Assembly (NCBI RefSeq): GCF_030268005.1
Contig: NZ_BRZC01000007.1
Coordinates: forward strand, 310,001-374,000
From: Microbacterium arabinogalactanolyticum
GTDB lineage: Bacteria; Actinomycetota; Actinomycetes; Actinomycetales; Microbacteriaceae
Direction of reading: 5' to 3'
DNA: 64,000 nucleotides
Below, in pieces: positions 5,854 to 11,852 of the stretch (the stretch's first letter is position 1; each line of letters begins with the position of its first letter). The position numbers were made by a program, and so were the translations under genes. The notes under the pieces were generated by a model that saw only the letters and a program-made list of their open reading frames with translations, did no database searches and was not told the DNA's origin.

Positions 5854-6741
5854 TCAGCGCGGAGACAGCAGGAAGGCGTTCAGCTCCGCCGTGAGGTCGG
5901 GATCGGATGTCAGTGGTGCGCCGTCCACGGCGGTGATCGCCACGGCCAGGCGGATGCTGGAGACCAGCCAGGCGGCATCCGCGGTCGCCAGGTCGGTGGC
6001 CGAGAGCGTCGCGTACGTCGTGCGGAAGCCGCGCGACTCCAGCAGCTCGTACACGCTGAGCTGCGTCGTGCCGTGTAGGATGCCGCCGGACGGCGCCGGC
6101 GTGAGGAACTCGTCGCCGCGGCGGATGATCAGCGATGCCGTGGGCGCCTCGAGCACGAACCCCTCGCGCGTGACGAACACGGCGTCGTCGGCTCCGCGCC
6201 GGTGCGCCTCGCGGAGCGCCGACATGTTCACCGCGTAGGAGAGGGTCTTCGCGCCGAGGAGCAGCCACGGCGCCCGCTCCCCCGCTCCGAGGTCGTAGCC
6301 GCGGTCGAGAGTGACGACGCGCACGCCGTCGCGGCGGACCGCGGAGAAGTCGGCGGCGGGCGCGGCGGTGACCCACGCGGTCGGCGCCGGTCCGTGCTCC
6401 ACGCCCCGGCTCAGGATGAGCTTGACGACGGCCTCGCCCTGCGGGATCCGCGCGGCGGCGACCGCGACCGCCTGCCGCCACTGCTCGAGGTTCGGTGCCG
6501 GCAGGTCGCAGATCTGCGCGGAATGCGCAAGCCGCTGCACGTGCGCCTCGACCTCGTTGGCATGTCCGTCGATCACGCCGATCGACTCGAAGACGCCGTC
6601 CCCGCGCTGGGTGCTGAACTCCCCGACGCTGAGCGCCGGGGCCTCGACGTCCACGTCTGTGAAGGTGTCGGAGTAGTCGTCACGGGCATCCGCCACGTCG
6701 GCGGGGTCGATCATCAGGGCGTAGCGCTGAGCCATGTCCAC
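5854..6741 (-). CDS. pabC: Class IV aminotransferase, aminodeoxychorismate lyase-like
   Basis: 295-aa fold-type IV PLP enzyme. The PLP lysine is K165 in GAKTLSYAVN. The downstream ADDAVFVTREGFVLEAPTAS segment and the GGILHGTT loop (usual form G-I-L-P-G-x-x-R) are typical of the class. The best guess is 4-amino-4-deoxychorismate lyase (p-aminobenzoate for folate), but D-amino-acid or branched-chain aminotransferases share these motifs and no pabA/B lies nearby. Start is uncertain: GTG at 6741 or ATG at 6735, neither with a strong ribosome-binding site. It is convergent with pstB. Confidence 0.75.
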   Translation of the reverse strand: MDMAQRYALMIDPADVADARDDYSDTFTDVDVEAPALSVGEFSTQRGDGVFESIGVIDGHANEVEAHVQRLAHSAQICDLPAPNLEQWRQAVAVAAARIPQGEAVVKLILSRGVEHGPAPTAWVTAAPAADFSAVRRDGVRVVTLDRGYDLGAGERAPWLLLGAKTLSYAVNMSALREAHRRGADDAVFVTREGFVLEAPTASLIIRRGDEFLTPAPSGGILHGTTQLSVYELLESRGFRTTYATLSATDLATADAAWLVSSIRLAVAITAVDGAPLTSDPDLTAELNAFLLSPR

Positions 6742-6792
6742 AGCTTAGGACGGTCGGGAATACCTCTGCCGAAGACGCGTTACACTTGATCG

Positions 6793-6880
6793 GCCGGGCC
6801 GCATAACCCCGGGCTCCAACTTCTGCCGCTGCGAGCGGCCTTCCGCCGAGAGGCGTTCTTGCGGCCCGGTCTTTCTCTGT
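6793..6880 (+). ncRNA. Candidate stand-alone structured small RNA
   Basis: In the gap between two minus-strand genes the plus strand carries a -10-like TACACT (6781-6786), then an element closed by a 10-bp perfect stem (6794-6803 with 6860-6869, plus one G-U pair). The stem encloses a 6-bp hairpin with a triloop (6825-6830/6834-6839) and a 4-bp hairpin with a GAGA tetraloop (6844-6847/6852-6855). The closing arm is followed by a pyrimidine run TCTTTCTCT, as in a factor-independent terminator. No plus-strand gene follows, so a riboswitch or leader is unlikely. It matches no RNA family I recognise. No clear -35 is visible. Confidence 0.35.
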
Positions 6881-6914
6881 CCGGACGACGTCTCAGGCGA
6901 ACGCGTCCGTCGCC

Positions 6915-7544
6915 TCAGGTCAGCGCGCCGCGACGCCACGCGGCCGCACTCGCGGACAGGTCGTCGGCGTAGCCGCTCAGGCGCAGGGCGCGGCGGGTGA
7001 GCTCACTGGCACGGCCGGGCTCGGTGGGCTCGTAGTCGTCGGCGGTGTGCGTGGCGCCGGAGGCCTGCACCCGGCAGTAGGCCGCTGCACGCTCGAGCGC
7101 CACGGCGAAGTCGCCCTGGAACACCCCGCGCAGGATCGTGTCGACGAGCTCGGCGAGCTCCTCCGGGCTGGCCGGTGTCGGCGCCCCCGCGATCAGGCTG
7201 TCCGCCGACTGCAGCTCGACCCTGCCGCGCTCGTACAGCAGGGCGGTGGTCGCGGCATCGCTGCGGATCGCGATCTGCAGCAGGTACAGTCGCCACAGCG
7301 CACCGGGCAGCGAGCGCGCGGGAGCGTGCGACCAGAGCTCGGCGATCTCGTCGATGCCGTGCTCGGACGCGAAGGCGATCAGTCGCTCGGTCGTCTCCCC
7401 CGTGACGTCCTTCCGAGCCCGCTCGAGAAGAGCGGATGCCGTGGCGTGCGCGATGCGCGACTTCTCGGCGGGGTCCGCAGCTCCGACGAGGTTGTCGAAA
7501 GCGGCGGTCGGACGCCGGACGGGACGATGGAACTGCTCTGGCAC
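6915..7544 (-). CDS. Conserved protein of unknown function, SigK-operon member
   Basis: 209 aa, soluble, mostly alpha-helical, no signal peptide or membrane segment. It begins MPEQFHRPVRRPTAAFDNL and has internal Trp-rich segments (ELWSHAPARSLPGALWRLYLL). Two Cys-poor helical halves are apparent; I do not recognise the fold. It follows rskA by 21 bases in the same direction, so it is probably the last gene of a dipZ-sigK-rskA transcript and may share their regulation. Codon bias is like its neighbours, supporting a real gene. Confidence 0.75.
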   Translation of the reverse strand: MPEQFHRPVRRPTAAFDNLVGAADPAEKSRIAHATASALLERARKDVTGETTERLIAFASEHGIDEIAELWSHAPARSLPGALWRLYLLQIAIRSDAATTALLYERGRVELQSADSLIAGAPTPASPEELAELVDTILRGVFQGDFAVALERAAAYCRVQASGATHTADDYEPTEPGRASELTRRALRLSGYADDLSASAAAWRRGALT

Positions 7545-7565
7545 TCGATCCAGGGTACGCCAGCC

Positions 7566-8372
7566 TCAGGCGGTGGGGATCACGATGATCGGCTCGCTCG
7601 TCGGCGCGCCGGAGGGCGAGCCGCCGGACTGCTCCACCGTGACGGCGATCACGTCGCCGGCGCGCATGGAGCCCTTCAGCAGAGCCGTCGCACTGCCGTC
7701 CTCGGGGGCGAACACCCCGGCCGAGACGGGCTTGTCGCCGCGCACGAACCAGAGCTCGTAGGTCTTGCCGGCCTCGGGCCGCTCGAGCCCGGACGCCACC
7801 AGCACCGCCTCGCCCAGGTCGGCCGACCAGTGCGCGGTGGCCGTCGCTCCGGATCCCAGCTTCACCGTCGCCTGAGCGGCATCCGGTGCCGAGCGGATCT
7901 CGTCCAGCGCGACGACGGAGGCAGGGCGCTGCAGTTGGGAGACGACCACCGCGGTGGCGATGCCACCGCCGACGATCAGCACGAGGCACGCGGCGAGCGC
8001 GAAGAGCGCCCGCGACCAGCGCTTCGGCGCGGGATGCGAGGCGTCCACCACGGCCTCCGCGTCCGACGCCTCCCCGACATGCGCTGCGGGATCCTGAGCG
8101 GACTGCGCGGCCGGACCGGCATCCGCTCGGCCGTCCGCGCCTGACTGCGGCGTCGTCGCGATGCGCGCGAGCAGCTCCTCCCTGAGCATCGGCGGCGGCG
8201 TCACAGGAGGGAGAGCGGCGGCGAGGGTCGCCGCGGTCTGCTCGTCCTCGTCGATGTGCTCGTGCCACTCCGGATGCGCTGCCCGCGCCTCGAGGAAACG
8301 CCGCTCGTCCACGGCCGAGAGGGCGTGCAGAGCGTGTCCGGCCGCGAGCTCGGCGAATTCCCGCTCGTTCAT
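7566..8372 (-). CDS. rskA: Anti-sigma factor of the RskA (anti-sigma-K) family
   Basis: 268-aa membrane-anchored anti-sigma factor. N-terminal sigma-binding domain (about 1-75; ELAAGHALHALSAVDERRFLE is the typical opening), an acidic linker, one transmembrane helix at about 121-145, then an extracytoplasmic RskA domain (about 150-268; GKTYELWFV is characteristic). It holds the ECF sigma factor inactive at the membrane until it is proteolysed. Its ATG overlaps the sigma-factor stop (ATGA), so the pair is made together. In mycobacteria RskA senses redox state through extracytoplasmic residues; no Cys pair is visible in this protein, so the signal may differ. Confidence 0.92.
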   Translation of the reverse strand: MNEREFAELAAGHALHALSAVDERRFLEARAAHPEWHEHIDEDEQTAATLAAALPPVTPPPMLREELLARIATTPQSGADGRADAGPAAQSAQDPAAHVGEASDAEAVVDASHPAPKRWSRALFALAACLVLIVGGGIATAVVVSQLQRPASVVALDEIRSAPDAAQATVKLGSGATATAHWSADLGEAVLVASGLERPEAGKTYELWFVRGDKPVSAGVFAPEDGSATALLKGSMRAGDVIAVTVEQSGGSPSGAPTSEPIIVIPTA

Positions 8373-8968
8373 GTCGACACCCCCAGTTCGCTGCGCAGCC
8401 GCGTCAGCCCGTCTCTCATCCTCGTCTTGATCGTTCCCAGCGGAGCGCCGGTCAGAGCCGAGATCTCGGTCTGACTGTAACCCCCGTAATAGGCCAGGAT
8501 CAGTGCTTCCTGCTGCGCCTCCGGCAGCGCCGAGAGCGCCGCCACGACCCGCTCTCCTTCGATCTGCGCCTCGACCGCCTCCTCGACGACATCCCGAGCC
8601 GCATCGAGGTCACGCACACCGACGCGCACGTCACGATCGCTGCTCGACTGCGACGCCCGCACCCTGTCGACGGCCCGGCGGTGGGCGATGGTGAGCACCC
8701 AGGACCTGCCCTGCCCTCTGTTCGGAGCGAAGCGTCCGGCGGATTGCCAGATCTCCAGGAAGACCTCCTGGAGGACCTCCTCGCTCTGCGAGCGGTTCAC
8801 CACCACGCGCAGGATCAGGGCGAACACGCGCGGCGAGAGAAGGTCGTACAGTTCGGCGAAGGCACGCTGGTCGCCTGCGGCCACGCGCACCAGGAGGTCG
8901 GCCGCGCTGTCTCGCGCCGAACCGTCCTCCGGCACTTCCAGGCCGTCGATCACCATCTCCACCAGCAT
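8369..8968 (-). CDS. sigK: ECF RNA polymerase sigma factor, SigK type
   Basis: 199-aa group IV sigma factor. Sigma-2 region at about 25-95 (AFAELYDLLSPRVFALILRV ... RSWVLTIAHRRAVDRVR) and sigma-4 at about 140-195 (ALPEAQQEALILAYYGG ... GTIKTRMRDGL), the helix-turn-helix that reads the -35. I chose the ATG at 8968 because GGAGGGG lies 7 bases upstream; the frame is open further but the extension reads as low-complexity shadow. It overlaps rskA by 4 bases and follows dipZ by 34 bases. The SigK assignment rests on the RskA partner and on the dipZ and MPT83-like neighbours. Confidence 0.9.
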   Translation of the reverse strand: MLVEMVIDGLEVPEDGSARDSAADLLVRVAAGDQRAFAELYDLLSPRVFALILRVVVNRSQSEEVLQEVFLEIWQSAGRFAPNRGQGRSWVLTIAHRRAVDRVRASQSSSDRDVRVGVRDLDAARDVVEEAVEAQIEGERVVAALSALPEAQQEALILAYYGGYSQTEISALTGAPLGTIKTRMRDGLTRLRSELGVST

Positions 8969-9002
8969 GCCGCATCCCCTCCTCTCCCGACCCGCGCCAC
9001 TC

Positions 9003-10712
9003 TCAACCGAAGGTGAATGAGTAGACCTGCACGCCCGGCGACACCTCGACGGTGAGCTCACCGACCGTCGGCCCGCCCTGCTTCACCCGGTACGAACGCG
9101 GGCTGCCGTCCACATCGATGCGCTCGGTGGCGCCGTCCGGGCCTGTCACCATGATCCGGCCGGATCCGCCCATCACCATCCGCACCTCGTCGGCACGGTA
9201 GGTCAGACGGATGCTGCCGCCGTCGGAGCCCTCGGACGGTGCGGCGTACTGGCTCTGGACGTCCCACCGGCCGCTCAGCGTGAAGGTGTCCTTCGGCTGC
9301 TTCCGCGGGAACGCGAAGTCCTTCTCGCCGGATCGGTACGCACCCTCGCCGCCGTAGTTGCGGTCCTTCGAGAAGCCCAGGAACGTCTCCGGGGTGGTCG
9401 AGCCCACCTCGGGCGTGCTGTCGGCGACCTCCGTGGCGGCGGGAAGCGAGACATCGGGGTCGGCCTGCTCCAGCAGCTGCCGGATCAGCTTCTCGGTGGC
9501 GGAGTACGCGCCCTCCCCGAAGGCGATCTGCCGCACGACGCCCTTCGCGTCGATGAGGTAGTGCGCGGGCCAGTAGCGGTTGCGGTACGCGGTCCAGGTG
9601 GCCAGGTCGTTGTCGAGCGCCACGGGATAGTCGATTCCGAAGTCGCGGATGCCGGAGGCGACATTGCCCGCGTCCTTCTCGAAGGCGTACTCCGGCGAGT
9701 GCACGCCGATCACCTGCAGGCCAGCGTCGCGATACGCCTCGTCCCAGGCGACGACGTGCGGGATGGAGCGCTGGCAGTTGATGCACGAGTACGCCCAGAA
9801 GTCGACCAGAACCACCTTGCCGCGCAGCTGCTTCAGGTCGATGGCCTTCCCGTCCGGCGTGTTCAGCCACTGCGCGATGCCGCGGATCGCCGGTGCCGTG
9901 CCGCAGTCCTGCAGCGAGGCCGAGCCGTTCGTGCAGTTGCTGAGCTCCCGGTTCTCGTCGGTGACGAGGCCGCCCAGGTCGAGGGCCTCCGCCTGCTTGT
10001 CGGCGAGGTCCTGCTGCAGCGGCGCGGTGTAGTCCGGGAGCAGGCGCTGCAGCTGCTGCGGGACGTTGAAGACGAGTCCCACCGCCAGGGCGATCATCGC
10101 GATGCCGGCGGTGACGCGCAGGCCGCGCTCCCGGGTTCGGAACGCGCGGATCCGCTCGACCAGCCCGCGCCCGGCGAGGGCGAAGACGAGCAGCGGAACG
10201 GCCACGCCGATCGCGAAGGACGCGGTGAGCAGCACCGTGCCGATGCCGATGCGCCCGGTCGAGCCCGCGACGATGATGGCGGCGAGGACGGGGCCCGCGC
10301 AGGGCACGAACACCGCGCCGAGGGCGAGCCCGACGCCGAACCCGCTCCCCCGGTTCTGCACCTCACGCCGGGGCACCCACTGGAACGGCCGCTCCAGCAG
10401 CTGCTCGAGCCGTGGCACGATGAGCGCGACGCCGATGAGGATCAGGACGACGATCCCCGCCCATCGGATGACGTCCTGCGGCAGGTGCAGCAGGGAGAGC
10501 AGCAGCGATCCGGCCAGGGTCACGACGCTGAAGCTCAGCACGAGGCCCAGGATCACCAGGTAGGGGCGGCTCCGGCGTGCGGGCGCCACCTGACCCTCGA
10601 ATCTCGCCGACTGCGCGCCTCCGGTGAGGAAGATGACCGGGAGCACCGGCAGGATGCACGGGGAGATCCCCGTGATGAGGCCGCCGAGCAGCCCGATGAT
10701 GATCAGATCCAT
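9003..10712 (-). CDS. dipZ: DipZ-like CcdA-thioredoxin fusion
   Basis: 569-aa protein. Residues 1-230 form a CcdA/DsbD-type membrane domain with the conserved SPCILP (C19) near the first helix and further helices to about 220. A TlpA-like thioredoxin domain follows, with CINC at 310-313. The C-terminal ~140 residues form a jelly-roll-like domain seen in DipZ proteins. It moves reducing equivalents across the membrane to the extracytoplasmic thioredoxin domain. GGAAGG precedes the ATG. In mycobacteria dipZ sits between mpt83 and mpt70 and belongs to the SigK regulon; here it heads the sigK-rskA unit and faces an MPT83-like gene. Confidence 0.92.
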   Translation of the reverse strand: MDLIIIGLLGGLITGISPCILPVLPVIFLTGGAQSARFEGQVAPARRSRPYLVILGLVLSFSVVTLAGSLLLSLLHLPQDVIRWAGIVVLILIGVALIVPRLEQLLERPFQWVPRREVQNRGSGFGVGLALGAVFVPCAGPVLAAIIVAGSTGRIGIGTVLLTASFAIGVAVPLLVFALAGRGLVERIRAFRTRERGLRVTAGIAMIALAVGLVFNVPQQLQRLLPDYTAPLQQDLADKQAEALDLGGLVTDENRELSNCTNGSASLQDCGTAPAIRGIAQWLNTPDGKAIDLKQLRGKVVLVDFWAYSCINCQRSIPHVVAWDEAYRDAGLQVIGVHSPEYAFEKDAGNVASGIRDFGIDYPVALDNDLATWTAYRNRYWPAHYLIDAKGVVRQIAFGEGAYSATEKLIRQLLEQADPDVSLPAATEVADSTPEVGSTTPETFLGFSKDRNYGGEGAYRSGEKDFAFPRKQPKDTFTLSGRWDVQSQYAAPSEGSDGGSIRLTYRADEVRMVMGGSGRIMVTGPDGATERIDVDGSPRSYRVKQGGPTVGELTVEVSPGVQVYSFTFG

Positions 10713-10852
10713 GATCCGCCTTCCGTCGAGTGCTGTTCGGCCCCGGCCCGGATTCGGATTGCCTGAACGCGCCGCTGACGCGCCGCTGACGCATCACGGT
10801 CACGCCCGGAAGGAGCCGAGGATGCTGCCGGAGAAAGACGTCCGAGGAATTC

Positions 10853-10879
10853 CCATCCGATCGCGGGAGGGCGCCGAAC
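10853..10879 (+). promoter_or_regulatory. Candidate SigK-dependent promoter of the fasciclin gene
   Basis: CCATCC at 10853-10858 and CCGAAC at 10874-10879, with a 15-bp spacer. As I recall it, the mycobacterial SigK promoter is CCATCC at -35 and CCGAAT at -10, so 11 of 12 positions match. The predicted start lies about 40 bases before the fasciclin ATG. A CCGAAT hexamer also lies on the minus strand (10757-10752), 40 bases before dipZ, but without a matching -35. The assignment is an inference from sequence and gene context. Confidence 0.6.
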
Positions 10880-10928
10880 AACCCTCGACGCCGCGGGAGG
10901 TCCGCGGCCCTAGCAACCGGAGGTTGAC

Positions 10929-11591
10929 ATGCTCAGCACCAAGAAGAAGATCACCGCAGCTCTCTCACTCGGTTTCGCCGGCATCCTCGTGCTGGCGGGT
11001 TGCACGATGAACGGCGGATCGGAGGCGACCTCGGAGCCGAAGGCACCGGAGACGTCCGACTCCGCATCCCAGGCCCCCGAGACGATGGACCCCGCGGCGA
11101 ACCTCGTCGGTCCCGGCTGTGCGGACTACGCCAAGCAGGTGCCGGACGGACCCGGCTCCGTGCAGGGCATGTCGCAGGACCCGGTCGCCGTCGCCGCGTC
11201 GAACAACCCGCTCCTGAAGACTCTGGTCTCCGCCGTGAGCGGGAAGCTGAACCCCGATGTGAACCTCGTCGACACGCTCAACGGCGATGAGTTCACGGTC
11301 TTCGCACCGGTGGACTCCGCGTTCGGCAAGATCGACCCGGCCACCATCGAGGCGCTCAAGACCGACTCCAAGACCCTCACCTCGATCCTGACCTACCACG
11401 TCGTCCCGGGACAGATCGAGCCCGCCGACATCGTGGGCATGCACAAGACCGTGCAGGGCGCTGATGTCGACGTGACCGGATCCGGCGACATGCTCAAGGT
11501 CAACGACGCCAACGTGATCTGCGGTGGCGTGCAGACCGCGAACGCGACCGTGTACCTGATCGACTCGGTGCTGATGCCGCCGGCTCAGTGA
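10929..11591 (+). CDS. Fasciclin-domain lipoprotein, MPT83/MPT70-like
   Basis: 220 aa. Lipoprotein signal with lipobox LAGC, followed by a Thr/Ser/Glu/Pro linker (about 25-60) and one FAS1 domain (about 85-218), with FAS1 motifs [14 protein letters not shown] and [10 protein letters not shown] and the C-terminal [13 protein letters not shown]1 domains mediate adhesion and cell-surface contacts; mycobacterial MPT83/MPT70 are the closest concept. GGAGG precedes the ATG. It is divergent from dipZ and preceded by a SigK-like promoter, so it is probably the main output of this sigma factor here. Two hairpins follow the gene. Confidence 0.9.
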
Positions 11592-11637
11592 CCGTCAGGT
11601 GATGCCGGCGCGTGGGGACGCCTCGGCATCGCCTGCC

Positions 11638-11709
11638 GGAGTGCCGGATCACGGAGGAGACCGGCACTCCGAGGAGAGCGCGCTCGCCGGCCTGCCGGCG
11701 GGCGCGCTC
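11638..11709 (+). terminator. Tandem hairpins after the fasciclin gene
   Basis: Two successive inverted repeats: a 10-bp perfect stem (11638-11647 with 11661-11670) and a 16-bp stem with one G-U pair (11676-11691 with 11694-11709, loop CT). They lie in the 187-base gap before tRNA-Lys. There is no T-run, but the second stem is very stable. They probably end the fasciclin transcript before the tRNA promoter (TAGGAT at 11747-11752). Confidence 0.5.
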
Positions 11710-11778
11710 GTGCGTCCCGGGTCGACGACGCGGCTGCTCCGCCGGATAGGATGGATCGGTCAGGTCCGCCCTGACCAG

Positions 11779-11851
11779 GGGCCTCTAGCTCAGTTGGCAG
11801 AGCATCGGACTTTTAATCCGCGGGTCGTGGGTTCGAGCCCCACGGGGCCCA
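11779..11851 (+). tRNA. tRNA-Lys (anticodon TTT)
   Basis: 73-nt cloverleaf. Acceptor GGGCCTC pairs with GGGGCCC (one G-U), D-arm GCTC...GAGC, anticodon loop CTTTTAA giving TTT, T-arm GTGGG-TTCGAGC-CCCAC, discriminator A. The genome continues CCT, so the 3' CCA is only partly encoded. A TAGGAT -10 hexamer at 11747-11752 lies upstream. The stop of a minus-strand membrane-protein gene lies two bases beyond the 3' end. Confidence 0.95.
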
Positions 11852-11852
11852 C

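Follow-up and report, generated by a model that had tools for sequence, protein, structure and literature searches.

Known SigK systems and the Microbacterium locus

In Mycobacterium tuberculosis, the sigma factor SigK and its anti-sigma factor RskA (4nqw) are encoded apart from mpt83-dipZ-mpt70, which stand at a second locus. M. tuberculosis sigK was reported to be autoregulated (PMC7509140). According to the same source, Veyrier et al. had described the mpt83-sigK-rskA cassette of Actinobacteria and Yersinia in 2008, together with the SigK site conserved in it. The stretch studied here, hereafter the window, comprises 64,000 nucleotides (nt) of Microbacterium arabinogalactanolyticum (contig NZ_BRZC01000007.1, positions 310,001 to 374,000; assembly GCF_030268005.1, 3.67 Mb in 13 contigs) and carries dipZ, sigK and rskA beside a gene for a fasciclin lipoprotein. 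The locus is of this known kind; the present analysis adds a second predicted promoter, corrects the argument on cysteines and proposes a regulon of modest size. Judged from sequence, the locus very probably represents a SigK/RskA envelope-stress switch with positive autoregulation, acting through two predicted promoters between the divergent dipZ and fasciclin genes and a further site before an SPW-domain gene, and answering to a trigger other than a SigK disulfide.

Gene calls and domain searches agree on the order dipZ, sigK, rskA and a gene for a protein of 209 amino acids (aa) on the minus strand, with the fasciclin gene divergent on the plus strand, as an earlier note on this DNA had read it. 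The fasciclin-domain lipoprotein gene of MPT70/MPT83 type (10929-11591, plus strand; PF02469) encodes 220 aa with a lipobox cysteine at position 25 and a Cys64/Cys198 pair, both members of which are kept in all 147 aligned sequences, the window included, and its closest solved structure is MPT70 (1nyo, E 8.7e-68). By Pfam, PDB match and motif comparison, it has the fasciclin type and the SigK-type promoter expected of the cassette. The gene dipZ (9003-10712, minus strand) encodes a full-length protein of 569 aa, in which a CcdA-like membrane part (PF02683) is fused to a thioredoxin domain (PF00578/PF08534) with a CxxC motif (CINC) and to a C-terminal domain (PF17991), the best solved relative being M. 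tuberculosis DipZ (2hyx, E 1e-113). The sigK gene (8369-8968, minus strand) encodes an extracytoplasmic function (ECF) sigma factor of 199 aa, which belongs to the SigK subfamily by NCBIfam PRK09646 (237.3 bits, cut-off 226) and finds M. tuberculosis SigK as its best PDB match (4nqw_A, E 5.1e-45); its start is most likely the ATG at 8968, 34 nt after the dipZ stop, rather than the GTG at 9061 that opens a longer open reading frame (ORF). Adjoining it, rskA (7566-8372, minus strand) encodes a full-length membrane anti-sigma factor of 268 aa (PF10099 RskA_C, 87.9 bits, cut-off 29.4; NF052375) with a single strong hydrophobic helix at residues about 126-144 and no solved relative at E 0.1.

The locus thus shares with the published cassette the joint presence of SigK, RskA and a fasciclin gene with a SigK site, so that the compact layout is not a novelty. 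Unlike the cassette (PMC7509140), the window has its fasciclin gene divergent and dipZ at the head of the sigK operon with a site of its own, and its SigK lacks Cys133/183 though RskA is full length. M. tuberculosis has the same families of sigma factor, anti-sigma factor, DipZ and MPT70-type fasciclin, whereas the window unites them in one locus, has no redox cysteine pair and adds the SPW-domain gene as a third predicted target. The SigK of Nocardia, also without Cys133/183, was reported to function without RskA activation; however, most Nocardia RskA proteins are truncated and mpt83 is absent (PMC7509140), unlike the 268-aa RskA and the fasciclin gene found here. In Corynebacterium pseudotuberculosis, dipZ is likewise listed beside sigK and an anti-sigma gene (cskE-sigK-dipZ), there in the pathogenicity island PiCp2 and, unlike the window, with no fasciclin gene in the available part of the gene table (PMC3078919). 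The same paper states that dipZ in Actinobacteria is exclusive to pathogens, despite which the present Microbacterium carries it at full length. The terms Microbacteri-, Leifsonia and Micrococc- are all absent from the text of PMC7509140, and no description of a Microbacterium SigK regulon was found in the open-licence literature, a scope outside which most subscription papers fall.

Predicted SigK-type promoters between the dipZ and fasciclin genes

The locus was compared in 180 sigK loci, comprising 100 from genomes (60 of the same genus and 40 of other genera of the family) and 80 named loci, which were counted with the genus, most being labelled Microbacterium and some genomes being present twice under different labels. 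The closest named relative by SigK is labelled Actinomycetales bacterium SN12 (86% identity). A fasciclin match was present in 146 of the 180 loci, giving 137 distinct upstream regions.

The gap of 216 nt between dipZ and the fasciclin gene holds two motif sites back to back. The first, CCATCC-N15-CCGAAC (10853-10879, plus strand), is separated by 49 nt from the fasciclin ATG at 10929. When the best match to CCATCC-N14-18-CCGAAY was taken from each of the 137 regions, 46, 40, 47 and 4 of them showed 0, 1, 2 and 3 mismatches, respectively, compared with 0, 45, 381, 1454, 583 and 3 for 0 to 5 mismatches in 2466 trials with permuted hexamers. At a spacing of 15, 129 of the 137 regions fit with at most two mismatches over eleven positions, and their consensus reads CMATCCGAT-N12-CCGAAS; the majority base reaches 95% on average in the hexamer columns and 61% in the spacer columns, the sites having been selected on the hexamers. 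By these comparisons, the motif before the fasciclin gene is beyond chance; it is kept in most of the relatives' upstream regions, which bears out what the earlier note had seen in this one sequence.

A weight matrix assuming spacing 15 was built from these 129 fasciclin-side sites. A score of at least 12 was reached by 129 of the 137 real regions and by 1 of 2740 block-shuffled ones, a circular comparison since the matrix was trained on these sites. Across the whole window, the fasciclin site scored 32.2, a site before dipZ 23.5, and the next match only 7.4; this last, a weak match inside sigK (8746-8720), was attributed to chance. The whole-genome scan proposed earlier, run in the close form CCATCC-N14-18-CCGAAY, gave 8 exact matches against 2 for the reversed pattern, and only the window site among them was good by the matrix, the other 7 scoring below zero (the matrix presumes spacing 15). 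This exact pattern was therefore set aside as both too loose, given its 8 matches, and too strict, since relatives also carry CAATCC and CCGAAG.

The site before dipZ (CAATCC-N15-CCGAAC, 10761-10735, minus strand) was overlooked in the earlier note. The dipZ-side sites played no part in building the matrix. A relaxed motif, with spacing 15-17 and a looser second hexamer, was found before dipZ in 34 of 39 Microbacterium loci and in 6 of 9 loci of other genera, compared with 0 of 171 when the stretches were reversed. Of the 40 sites so found, 35 lie 23-29 nt before the start as counted in that scan. With the strict matrix, 19 of the 39 and 6 of the 9 reached a score of at least 12; so did 18 of 855 pieces taken at random from these loci, a control set that includes some real sites. 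In the window, the second site ends 22 nt short of the ATG of dipZ, so that the dipZ-sigK-rskA operon is probably driven by SigK itself. DipZ is an optional part of sigK loci, with a match in 54 of the 180. Predicted autoregulation is clearest in the loci with dipZ, because those without it less often carry the looser motif before sigK (21 of 92 Microbacterium loci and 18 of 31 others).

Sites elsewhere and the predicted regulon

In the source genome, CMATCCGNW-N12-CCGAAN has two exact matches, both in the dipZ-fasciclin gap, and 17 matches with one mismatch; the reversed pattern gave none. Only one of the 17 scores high (C4:45278-45304, 22.4; locus L253 of genome G000), the next reaching 7.4, and it lies 45 nt before a gene for a 128-aa membrane protein with an SPW domain (PF03779). 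Motif comparison in relatives and the scans of the source genome agree that this SigK-type locus carries a SigK-type promoter itself, as proposed earlier; the locus is not strictly self-contained, as had also been claimed, because a third site of similar score precedes this gene on another contig.

Among 59 genomes of the genus, CMATCCGWW-N13-CGAAS gave 125 sites in 49 genomes, compared with one for the reversed pattern. Sixty-one of them lie within 4 kb of a sigK match, and 64 lie farther away or on other contigs. Sixty sites were fetched with their surroundings, namely 59 of the 64 distant ones (G226:C11 with two sites, G214:C123, G218:C10 and G218:C24 being left out) and a single site lying some 1.4 kb downstream of sigK (L370). 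Forty of the 60 directly precede a member of a picked family, a count flattered by the choice of families as recurrent or known. The genes following the sites encode molybdopterin oxidoreductases (PF00174; nine), DUF4383 proteins (nine), DUF427 proteins (seven), SPW proteins (seven of the 59 genomes, the source genome included), AMP-binding proteins (four) and a hexapeptide-like protein (one, and again in G304), as well as Gfo/Idh-like proteins (two, assigned by reading, no Pfam run having been made). One further site precedes a fasciclin gene where the sigK locus of the same genome has none.

With these sites recurring before other genes, the predicted regulon would extend beyond the locus, with a set that varies by species; as a guess from the predicted targets, it may serve envelope redox or the repair of methionine and disulfides. 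In the source genome, the molybdopterin oxidoreductase homologue (C7:757485-758909; 55% identity over query residues 200-520) was rejected as a target, having no motif before it, and no DUF4383 homologue was found in a search without a positive control. Nine of the 11 genus genomes without a sigK match have no motif site. Of the remaining two, G260 has two sites. One belongs to a fasciclin/dipZ pair, again divergent, on a draft contig where the dipZ frame is broken, so that sigK may be unassembled or lost in this genome; no clear gene follows the second. The last of the 11, G304 (83% complete), has one site. In genome G199, a SigK-type site stands 32 nt before an ORF that, judged by eye, resembles another ECF sigma factor (L336).

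Proposed mechanism

As in its family, membrane-bound RskA would hold SigK through its cytoplasmic N-terminal part, and an envelope signal would release SigK, probably by proteolysis ending at an M50 site-2 protease, for which the source genome has one match. SigK-bound RNA polymerase would then read CMATCCGAT-N12-CCGAAS promoters, as the conserved motif and its co-occurrence with sigK suggest. One promoter of the gap would drive the fasciclin lipoprotein gene and the one back to back with it dipZ-sigK-rskA; with this operon under a SigK-type promoter, SigK would amplify itself and RskA would be produced alongside as a brake. The third site would drive the SPW-domain membrane gene elsewhere, and the 209-aa gene would be reached at most by read-through.

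Cysteines and the inducing signal

The published redox pair, C133/C183, sits in SigK and not in RskA; it is present in 94% of ECF18 and 56% of ECF19, and the cysteine-less SigK of Nocardia is still counted as SigK (PMC7509140). The same source reports RskA as retained in 85% of cysteine-less SigK loci, so the combination of the two is not without precedent. The SigK of the window has Ala144 and Glu194 at these places and no cysteine at all, and a cysteine at either place was found in none of the 180 loci. Among 37 loci sampled elsewhere in the order, outside this family (20 hand-picked across families and 17 from among the best matches listed), eight have both cysteines, 29 have none and no locus has only one, an all-or-nothing pattern in this sample. 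Because both cysteines are absent, the Cys133-Cys183 switch cannot operate here, and the trigger most likely differs from the published disulfide.

The earlier note had reached a similar conclusion from RskA, which was said to have no extracytoplasmic cysteine pair. This is literally true, since the RskA of the window has a single cysteine, residue 129, inside the membrane helix, but it is uninformative as the published pair is in SigK; the suggestion that the inducing signal may differ survives on the composition of SigK itself. A cysteine after the helix is also missing from 120 of 131 Microbacterium RskA picks and all 40 others, counts in which only the majority is meaningful as they include wrong, over-long ORF picks of up to 650 aa.

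A role in redox sensing by another route, through RskA, DipZ or another protein in place of the SigK disulfide, is suggested by dipZ and the cysteine-pair fasciclin among the predicted targets and by the molybdopterin oxidoreductase genes with a motif in 9 of 59 genomes. We consider it rather unlikely, however, because the RskA of the window has no extracytoplasmic cysteine and no DipZ match was present in 126 of the 180 loci. As a tentative reading, short of one we would favor outright, a SigK without the cysteine switch may be family-wide and may go with a full-length RskA that senses stress extracellularly in place of SigK and with an envelope redox and repair set, in which we place the cysteine-pair fasciclin, DipZ, a membrane molybdopterin oxidoreductase and the DUF4383, DUF427 and SPW proteins.

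The 209-aa gene

The gene for the 209-aa protein (6915-7544, minus strand; GTG start at 7544) begins 21 nt after the end of rskA. Pfam and NCBIfam searches at E 0.001 assign its product to no family; an AlphaFold2 model is all-helical (predicted local distance difference test score, pLDDT, 79.5), and comparison of this fold with the PDB gave no match at E <= 0.001. The gene was suggested in the earlier note to belong to the regulon. It shares its strand with rskA, a terminator scan found none between the two, and it lies in the fetched stretch around sigK, on either side, in 156 of 180 loci, all of which would fit a true regulon member acting with RskA or DipZ. This is improbable, however, as the gene is present in all 29 genomes examined, including all 13 without a sigK match, and it has no fixed place with respect to sigK: the 34 loci from the family's other genera in which it was found all have it upstream of sigK, not after rskA. 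In Microbacterium genomes that lack sigK or carry it elsewhere, the gene often stays by pabC (seen within a short stretch in 10 of 17 genus loci), and the weight-matrix scan of the window found no high-scoring SigK-type motif before it. Scans for sigma-70 promoters and terminators found nothing anywhere in 6700-11800 and, therefore, say little about read-through. The gene is probably a conserved neighbour, giving no evidence for a larger regulon, and its co-transcription by read-through is possible.

The adjoining pabC, an aminodeoxychorismate lyase-like gene by Pfam and NCBIfam (5854-6741, minus strand), neighbours the 209-aa gene also away from sigK and is a synteny neighbour of it, outside the SigK/RskA switch. 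In G211, which has no sigK match, a 191-aa RskA-like ORF lies beside the 209-aa and pabC genes (L309, 857-1432); it scores 28.6 bits with PF10099 (cut-off 29.4) and retains the membrane and outer portions but lacks the N-terminal part that would bind SigK, and is possibly a remnant after loss of sigK.

Probable assignment of the motif to SigK

It is very improbable that the motif pair serves a different ECF sigma factor, with sigK-rskA merely adjacent: secondary matches in several genomes do reveal sigma factors of this class that are more distant, and the G199 site precedes one sigma-factor-like ORF, but the motif accompanies sigK in most relatives (61 of the 125 sites lie within 4 kb of the match) and is absent from 9 of the 11 genomes without a sigK match, the source genome has a single SigK match at E <= 1e-20, and SigK keeps TIK-RMRD and RRAVDRVR, as the M. 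tuberculosis protein does.

Several points nevertheless weigh against a SigK switch with these promoters. The motif could be shared by further ECF sigma factors encoded in the source genome, and the use of this consensus by M. tuberculosis SigK, taken here as background, was not found printed in any paper of the open-licence literature. Eight of the 137 fasciclin upstream regions have no fit at spacing 15, the strict matrix passes only 19 of the 39 Microbacterium dipZ loci while also passing 18 of 855 random pieces, and autoregulation is doubtful in the dipZ-less Microbacterium loci, where only 21 of 92 have the motif before sigK. In addition, 20 of the 60 fetched sites precede none of the picked families, and the G304 site and the second G260 site lie in draft genomes without a sigK match. 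Conversely, six of the 10 genomes without a site (G164, G208, G215, G230, G250 and G253) had a sigK match, that of G208 being distant, so the strict pattern misses variants.

Additional observations

A contig labelled Planococcus sp. APC 4015 (L208) carries a typical Microbacterium sigK locus (76% SigK identity), and the record is probably mislabelled or mixed. The SigK matches G237:C2:75802-76398 and G234:C2:151851-152444 each contain one in-frame TGA, pointing to possible pseudogenes, sequencing errors or a match overrunning the stop. In the window, a sequence resembling a tRNA for Lys, its anticodon reading TTT, was spotted by eye 3' of the fasciclin gene, at about 11781-11852.

Conclusions

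The observation in the earlier note was confirmed and its interpretation stands in part: the SigK-type locus and promoter are supported, and the novelty, the membership of the 209-aa gene, the RskA cysteine argument and the strict self-containment are not. The stimuli that fire SigK have been called obscure in mycobacteria (PMC9861118). With its two SigK-type promoters in one 216-nt gap, an RskA of full length and a SigK that lacks the disulfide, the present locus would let sensing by RskA be tested apart from the cysteine switch, and the recurrent targets elsewhere provide concrete hypotheses on the partners of the fasciclin proteins. If RskA indeed senses stress outside the cell, the Microbacterium regulon would be one not yet described.

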